Part shown: in pieces, positions 3,634-5,496 of the stretch
Layout: each line of letters starts with the position of its first letter
Numbering within the stretch: position 1 is the stretch's first letter
Source: Candidatus Poribacteria bacterium
Lineage (GTDB): Bacteria > Abyssobacteria > SURF-5
Reading direction: 5' to 3'
Assembly (NCBI GenBank): GCA_016215705.1
Contig: JACRIR010000258.1
Span: 1 to 6,147 of the forward strand
Length of the DNA stretch: 6,147 nt
The notes under the pieces: model-generated
The model's database searches: none
What the model was told of the DNA's origin: nothing
The model's input: only the letters and a program-made list of their open reading frames with translations
Translations under genes and position numbers: made by a program

Positions 3634-5496
3634 TTATTCTGTCGCTTCGAATCGTGCCTGGAAGAACCGCAGATATTTTGGTTCGTACAGCATCTTGAGG
3701 CCGCGGGTCTTTTCACGGACGTCATACACCGCCTTGACCGCTTCGGCTGTCACATCCATGTGCGCTTGCGTGTAAACACGCCGGGGGATTGTAAGGCGCA
3801 CAAGCTCGAGGGCGGGGTAGTGGTGGTCGCCCGTTTTGGGATCGCGCCCAGCGCTGACGACGCCGCGCTCCATCCCGCGGATGCCGGAGTCGAGATAAAG
3901 CTCAGCGGCGAGCCTTTGTGCCGGAAACTGGTTTTGAGGTATGTGCGGATAGAACTTCTTGGCGTCCAAAAAGACACCATGTCCGCCCACGGGCTGCACA
4001 ATCGGGATTCCCCATTCGGTCAGCAACTGCCCTAAATAGCGCACCTGGCCGATGCGGGCGCGGATATGGTCATCCTGAACCGATTCGACAATGCCGATGG
4101 CCATCGCCTCCATGTCGCGTCCGGCCATGCCGCCGTATGTGTGCAGTCCTTCATATATGACGACCAGGTTGCGGAGCTGATCGAATAGGTCGTTGTCGTT
4201 GACTGCCACCCAGCCGCCGATGTTGACCAGGCTGTCTTTCTTGGCGCTCATCCACGCGCCGTCGGTATAACCGCAGAATTCCTTTAAGATGGCGGCAATG
4301 GGCTTACCGGCATAGCCTTCTTCGCGTTCCTGAATGAAGAAAGCGTTCTCGACCATGCGGGTGGCATCAAGATAGATTCGGATGCCGTGACGGTCGCAAA
4401 GCTCTCGGAGCGCGCGCACATTTGCCATGCTCACCGGCTGTCCTCCGGCCATGTTCACCGTTCCCGCAAGACTGATATACGCGATGTTGTCCTTGCCCAC
4501 TTTGTCGATCAAGGCTTGCAGCTTGTTCAAGTCAACATTCCCCTTGAAGGGATGCATACTGGCGGGGTTGTGAGCCTCGTCGATGATCACGTCAACAAAA
4601 ATGCCGCCCGCCAGTTCTTGGTGGAGCCGCGTAGTTGTGAAGTACATGTTGCCGGGCACGTATTGACCCTTCTTGATCGCCGCCTGGCTGATAAGGTGTT
4701 CCGCGCCCCGGCCCTGATGCGTCGGAACAAGATACTTGTAGCCGTAATATGTCTGAACCGCTTCTTCCAAATGATAGAAATTGCGGCTGCCCGCATATGC
4801 TTCGTCGCCTAGCATGATACCGGCCCACTGCCGGTCGCTCATTGCACTTGTGCCGCTGTCGGTCAACAGGTCGATGTAAACGTCCTCCGACCGCAGCAGA
4901 AAAGTATTATGACCTGCATCGACTAGAGCCTTTTTTCGCTCCTCGCGGCTGATGATTTTGATGGGCTCGACCATTTTGATTTTCCAAGGCTCGGCCCACG
5001 AACGGCGTCCGTACTGTTGTCCGATGGTCTGGGGTATTGGATGATCGGTCATGATTTCTCCTCCGGTGTGTTTCCTGCGCGTTCTCGCTTGCTTTCTCTG
5101 TTTTGACATTGCATGATATTGGGCCAGGCGGGAGCGCTCGCTTTTTGGGAACGCGCGCACCTCTTCCACCGAGACTCCGCGATGAAACGCCTCGACCAGG
5201 ATTCCATCAAGCGCATTCTTCAGTTCCAGCAGTACACGCTTTTTGTCAGGGTTTCGTCGAAAATCAGAAATGAAAACCCCTTTTCCGGCTCGCGTGACGA
5301 CGACTCCCTCGCTTTCAAGTTCACGATACGCTCTGGCAACGGTATTCGTGCTGATTCTCAGCTTCAAAGCCATTTCCCTGACCGAAGGCAGAAGTTCTCC
5401 CGCCTCGGTCATTCCGGTGGCGATGGAGCATTTTATCTCGTTCATCAGTTGAATGTAGATGGGCTCGCTCTTTTTCTGATCGATTTTGGGAAGCAT
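3634..5496 (-). CDS. tpl: GntR (YtrA-type) regulator fused in frame to tyrosine phenol-lyase
   Basis: One 620-residue frame contains two proteins. Residues 10-78 are a GntR winged helix ([25 protein letters not shown], then the wing GKGVFI). Residues 84-115 are the short helical tail of the YtrA subfamily. A basic linker (about 116-148) leads to a lyase that aligns without gaps to Citrobacter tyrosine phenol-lyase from memory at an offset of 163. Lys420 (PLP Schiff base), Tyr234, Arg263, Phe286, Asn348, Asp377, Arg380 and Arg567 correspond to Y71, R100, F123, N185, D214, R217 and R404. Phenol-pocket residues Thr287, Met542, Arg544, Phe611 and Phe612 are also kept, which separates it from tryptophanase. 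The reaction is tyrosine to phenol, pyruvate and ammonia. A ribosome binding site before Met149 could give a free 472-residue lyase, against about 456 for the family. The ATG at 5496 has AGGAG (5506-5510) nine bases upstream. Confidence 0.9.
5058..5064 (-). promoter_or_regulatory. Internal ribosome binding site before lyase Met149
   Basis: On the - strand GGAGGAG lies five bases upstream of the ATG at 5052-5050, which begins MTDHPIPQ. This is a near-ideal Shine-Dalgarno, better than the AGGAG with nine-base spacing before the regulator start. The ATG is in the same frame as the regulator, and the lyase homology begins about 16 residues later. Its presence argues that the two domains were once, or still are, two consecutive cistrons, and that free lyase may outnumber any fusion protein. 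Confidence 0.75.

Follow-up and report, generated by a model that had tools for sequence, protein, structure and literature searches.

A truncated YtrA-type GntR gene reading in frame into tyrosine phenol-lyase in a single Candidatus Poribacteria genome, probably the product of a lineage-specific rearrangement

The window (the whole stretch of DNA analysed here, 6,147 nucleotides of contig JACRIR010000258.1 in the Candidatus Poribacteria assembly GCA_016215705.1) carries on its minus strand one stop-free frame of 620 codons (5496-3634), whose translation has a single stop at its end. The frame had been predicted from the letters to be open from the GntR start to the lyase end, which is borne out, and the accompanying claim that no free GntR protein can be made by normal termination holds in the present sequence. 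The frame and its surroundings comprise the following features:

3634..5052, minus strand: tyrosine phenol-lyase (TPL), 472 aa from its own ATG (translation, TIGR02618, alignment to 2ez1)
5053..5154, minus strand: linker of 34 codons in place of the native regulator end and stop, with no homologue in three family genomes
5058..5064, minus strand: internal Shine-Dalgarno site GGAGGAG for TPL, of the kind that precedes TPL in G001 and G002 (sequence)
5155..5496, minus strand: YtrA-type regulator GntR1, codons 1-114, by homology to GntR2 on contig C177; winged helix at residues 16-76
5507..5538, minus strand: operator-like repeats CCGTAGCAATACAGTCAATACAGTAGG, counterpart of CTGTACTAGTACAGATAATACAGT at GntR2 (sequence comparison)
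5539..5567, minus strand: perfect sigma-70 promoter, TTGACA-17-TATAAT, with the same boxes standing before GntR2 and before further YtrA-type family genes
5698..6147, minus strand: 3' remnant of a permease gene belonging to the neighbouring GntR2-ABC operon; 141 bp of the contig end are shared with C177

The remainder of the window includes an MntA-like nucleotidyltransferase gene and an overlapping HepT-like frame after it (926-1493, plus strand), a probable HepT-MntA toxin-antitoxin pair, and a metallo-beta-lactamase-fold hydrolase with an alkyl sulfatase dimerisation domain (1947-3215, plus strand) that is convergent to TPL. A short run of CCTT repeats lies at 479-515 on the minus strand.

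Both coding parts of the frame are recognisable by homology. A GntR match covers residues 16-76 (Pfam, 1.9e-13) and, among solved structures, the small YtrA-like regulators 3by6 and 4ham match residues 5-116, in agreement with the prediction of a YtrA-like GntR part. A Beta_elim_lyase match covers residues 209-585 (Pfam, 1.6e-79), and the NCBIfam model for tyrosine phenol-lyase, TIGR02618, matches residues 168-617 with 779.2 bits, above its curated cut-off of 720.7. The solved relatives of the enzyme part are TPL of the Citrobacter type (652 bits, residues 168-617). In a gap-free alignment to 2ez1, residues K420, Y234, D377, R544 and M542 correspond to Lys257, Tyr71, Asp214, Arg381 and Met379, and all are kept. 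We take the first three to be catalytic, as the PLP lysine, the stacking tyrosine and the PLP aspartate, respectively, and Arg381 and Met379 to be the phenol specificity residues. The proposal of a full lyase with its catalytic residues is thereby upheld, as is that of an internal Shine-Dalgarno site at 5058-5064, since GGAGGAG is present before the ATG at 5052. GntR1 likewise keeps its own Shine-Dalgarno site (AGGAG, nine bases before the ATG). An AlphaFold model of the chimera, built on a 31-row alignment, reached a mean pLDDT of 55, which is too poor, and was set aside.

Upstream of GntR1, the repeats CAATACAGT and CAATACAG follow directly downstream of the TTGACA-17-TATAAT promoter, where the original prediction had noted repeats at 5508-5538. 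Operator-like repeats downstream of the promoter are also found at GntR2 and at other YtrA-type genes of the family. GntR2 is a stand-alone YtrA-type regulator encoded by the same genome on contig C177, identical to GntR1 at 94 of the 114 residues (about 80%) and about 75% identical in DNA. The DNA homology begins in the promoter region, takes in its TTGACA/TATAAT boxes as well as the TACAG-type operator, and ends abruptly at codon 114. After this codon GntR2 continues with ELLDGRIENLNKTRAK and a stop, giving 130 aa in total, and its homologue in G002 likewise stops after 130 residues; in GntR1 these last 16 residues and the stop are replaced by 34 unrelated codons. With nine private changes in GntR1 against seven in GntR2, there is no relaxation in GntR1 (dN 0.10, dS saturated). 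GntR1 has changed no faster than GntR2, so it functioned as a regulator over most of its evolutionary past. In the present sequence it is able to act only as part of the chimera, a point against regarding the locus as a rearrangement and nothing more.

The linker has few features of coding sequence. Its GC content is flat over the three codon positions (0.53/0.53/0.53), whereas that of GntR1 (0.59/0.37/0.58) and TPL (0.62/0.38/0.69) is not, and over about 32 codons this is suggestive of a stretch that was not selected as coding sequence. No real match for its source was found in the three family genomes G000, G001 and G002, although a conserved stop-free linker had been proposed as something to look for in relatives. 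Every reading frame is open from 5148 to 5052, the +1 frame stopping only at a TGA that overlaps the TPL ATG; the locus is therefore one indel, be it biological or an assembly fault, away from an ordinary coupled gene pair. The probability of an open linker is 0.54 under a Markov model of the linker itself and 0.34 under nearby intergenic composition, and a run of 33 or more open in-frame codons precedes the start in 18 of 83 related TPL genes. An open linker is no more than chance expectation and hence weak evidence for a fusion. By simple arithmetic, multiplying the chance of an open linker by one in three for keeping the frame, about one random junction in every six to nine would yield an open fusion.

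The neighbourhood bears a second scar. C177 and the window contig share an exact overlap of 141 bp at their ends, and a permease fragment (49% identity to G002) reads on across the join; the two contigs are thus very probably neighbours, with the gene order GntR2, ABC ATPase, permease remnant and GntR1-TPL. On C177, the ABC ATPase gene (L118 141-920, minus strand, G000:C177) breaks off close to its C-terminus, where it runs into the 3' end of a permease gene. The operon of G002 runs GntR-ABC-permease-permease, and there this permease end sits about 4 kb further on, so that about 4 kb is missing by comparison. Given junctions both in the GntR1 linker and between ABC ATPase and permease, the region appears to have been rearranged more than once, unless both are assembly faults.

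Within the searchable data, the fusion is confined to one genome. The TPL proteins of the two other family members compared, G001 and G002, are 91 and 88% identical to that of the window; each has its own GGAGG-type site and ATG among unrelated neighbours, and neither genome has a GntR gene beside TPL. The record QZKI01000052 (Candidatus Abyssobacteria SURF_17, L034) encodes the same TPL as G002. Around the other fetched TPL loci, with flanks of up to 3 kb and some shorter, neither a single-sequence search nor a profile of YtrA-like regulators detected a YtrA-like GntR. Strong lyase matches come from 88 genomes, and that of the window alone extends into GntR. No conserved fusion was found in sets of 98 and then 386 genomes, which overlap, nor in the 80 best loci of the genome collection, and a literature search for a GntR-tyrosine phenol-lyase fusion found nothing. 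The original prediction had called for a search of relatives for YtrA-type GntR domains in frame with TPL, which returned none, and had reckoned with relatives in which the two genes are separate; in the other TPL loci fetched, TPL and a YtrA-like regulator are not even neighbours.

The arrangement invites comparison with MocR regulators, in which a winged helix is joined to an aminotransferase-like domain and for which at least three independent fusion origins have been described (PMC6677901). As in GabR, PdxR and TauR, a single frame here joins an N-terminal GntR winged helix to a fold-type I PLP domain (PMC6677901). On the other hand, the PLP part here is a complete catalytic TPL with a start codon of its own rather than an aminotransferase-like (AAT) domain, a remnant of a YtrA helix lies between the parts, whereas MocR proteins have no YtrA C-terminal helix, and the fusion occurs in one genome instead of being conserved across species. 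The NCBIfam models for MocR score far below their cut-off and cover only about residues 1-100. Membership of MocR is ruled out by the type of the C-terminal domain (Beta_elim_lyase/TPL) and the single-genome distribution. The reading as a MocR-like chimera is not supported, as GntR1 is a truncated paralogue of stand-alone GntR2, the linker is not coding-like, TPL is unpaired with such a regulator in relatives, and the domain type differs.

With the YtrA subfamily (B. subtilis YtrA, YtrASa; PMC6746942), GntR1 shares the N-terminal winged helix and the start of the short two-helix C-terminal part, the operator at the promoter and the place as first gene of the transcript, and its paralogue GntR2 precedes an ABC ATPase; it differs in having lost its native C-terminus and stop, reading into TPL and not ending before a transporter gene (PMC6746942). 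Of the usual winged helix plus about 50 residues in two helices, GntR1 has the former, with YtrA-like chains matching to residue 116, but its second helix is cut after codon 114. YtrA genes stand first in an operon, usually with a transporter gene, and only GntR2 has an ABC ATPase next to it. By homology, GntR1 appears to be a YtrA paralogue by descent but not a standard member in context. The enzyme part resembles Citrobacter freundii TPL (2ez1) over residues 168-617, with the catalytic and phenol-specific residues kept, and differs in its in-frame N-terminal extension.

We consider it probable that a lineage-specific rearrangement placed TPL under a self-regulated YtrA promoter, as a lone event and not as an established enzyme-regulator hybrid. 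The observed open frame, homology limits, internal start, promoter boxes and isolated occurrence form the base of this explanation. In this event a duplicated, self-regulated YtrA-type GntR gene would have lost its final residues and stop and come to lie directly upstream of TPL, and the stop-free linker would keep the frame by accident. A single transcript would start from the consensus promoter at 5567-5539, presumably repressed at the operator by a YtrA-type regulator, be it GntR2, the fused GntR domain or both. Because TPL keeps its own ribosome site, two products are expected: initiation at the internal Shine-Dalgarno/ATG (5064/5052) would yield ordinary free TPL, the functional enzyme, and every ribosome starting at 5496 would yield the 620-residue chimera, if the assembly is right. 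The chimera may still be a DNA-binding autorepressor, or it may be a tolerated by-product. We infer the product ratio, the repression and a TPL that has no sensing role; there is no support for the TPL domain as a ligand sensor.

The junction is known from one draft assembly, and an error there, be it a misjoin or a single-base indel within the linker, could hide non-adjacent genes or an ordinary pair whose GntR gene stops at the TGA that overlaps the TPL ATG. The +1 linker frame does end exactly at an ATGA with the TPL start, a common coupling arrangement, another odd junction (ABC ATPase/permease) lies nearby, and the window contig is only 6.1 kb long. Yet the other two linker frames are unlike the GntR2 tail, GntR1 and TPL are otherwise clean, and at about 75% DNA identity GntR1 and GntR2 are too different for long shared words, which makes a misjoin via the paralogue unlikely; such an error is a real but minor possibility. 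Half as credible to us is that the GntR1 frame is a decaying remnant, no longer translated, so that only the promoter and the TPL start matter. The lost native C-terminus and a region full of deletion scars would fit decay, but GntR1 has neither excess changes nor an internal stop and keeps its Shine-Dalgarno site.

A functional MocR-like chimera, in which the TPL part would respond to tyrosine, phenol or PLP and control GntR binding at the chimera's own promoter, seems to us more improbable still. In its favour stand the real open frame, a conserved GntR domain and an operator that is kept. The second YtrA helix is cut after codon 114, however, and a proline stands close after the junction, both of which speak for weakened dimerisation. 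TPL is a tetramer, and its tetramerisation could substitute for the lost GntR dimer helix. Further points against such a chimera are its occurrence in a single genome, a linker with no codon-position signature, the TPL start that is kept, and the fact that TPL adjoins no such regulator in the other loci fetched. Just as little credence goes to its most elaborate form, a freshly born enzyme-regulator with a linker not yet shaped by selection, in which the chimera would be made, would fold, and would enter mixed tetramers with free TPL, repressing its own promoter according to substrate or PLP.

If the junction is real, the locus offers a snapshot of how fusions of GntR regulators with PLP enzymes, such as MocR, could begin: a regulator that has lost its stop, beside an enzyme that still has a start of its own, which allows both products to be made. 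The GntR1-TPL frame could represent such an early stage of a MocR-type fusion. The locus also shows that an in-frame open linker can arise without any selection, which calls for caution when gene fusions are called from open frames.

Lyases with long open upstream frames at L053, L108 and L137 were rejected as fusion candidates, having no GntR match or being judged by eye, and their frames are apparently GC-rich read-through. A different kind of lyase fusion was met at L136 (130-2616, minus strand), which encodes an 828-residue protein with two tandem lyase domains, the first apparently degenerate. An open frame of 835 in G359:C11 resembles this protein and, as the tandem frame thus occurs in two genomes of one genus, the lyase-lyase fusion is probably real.
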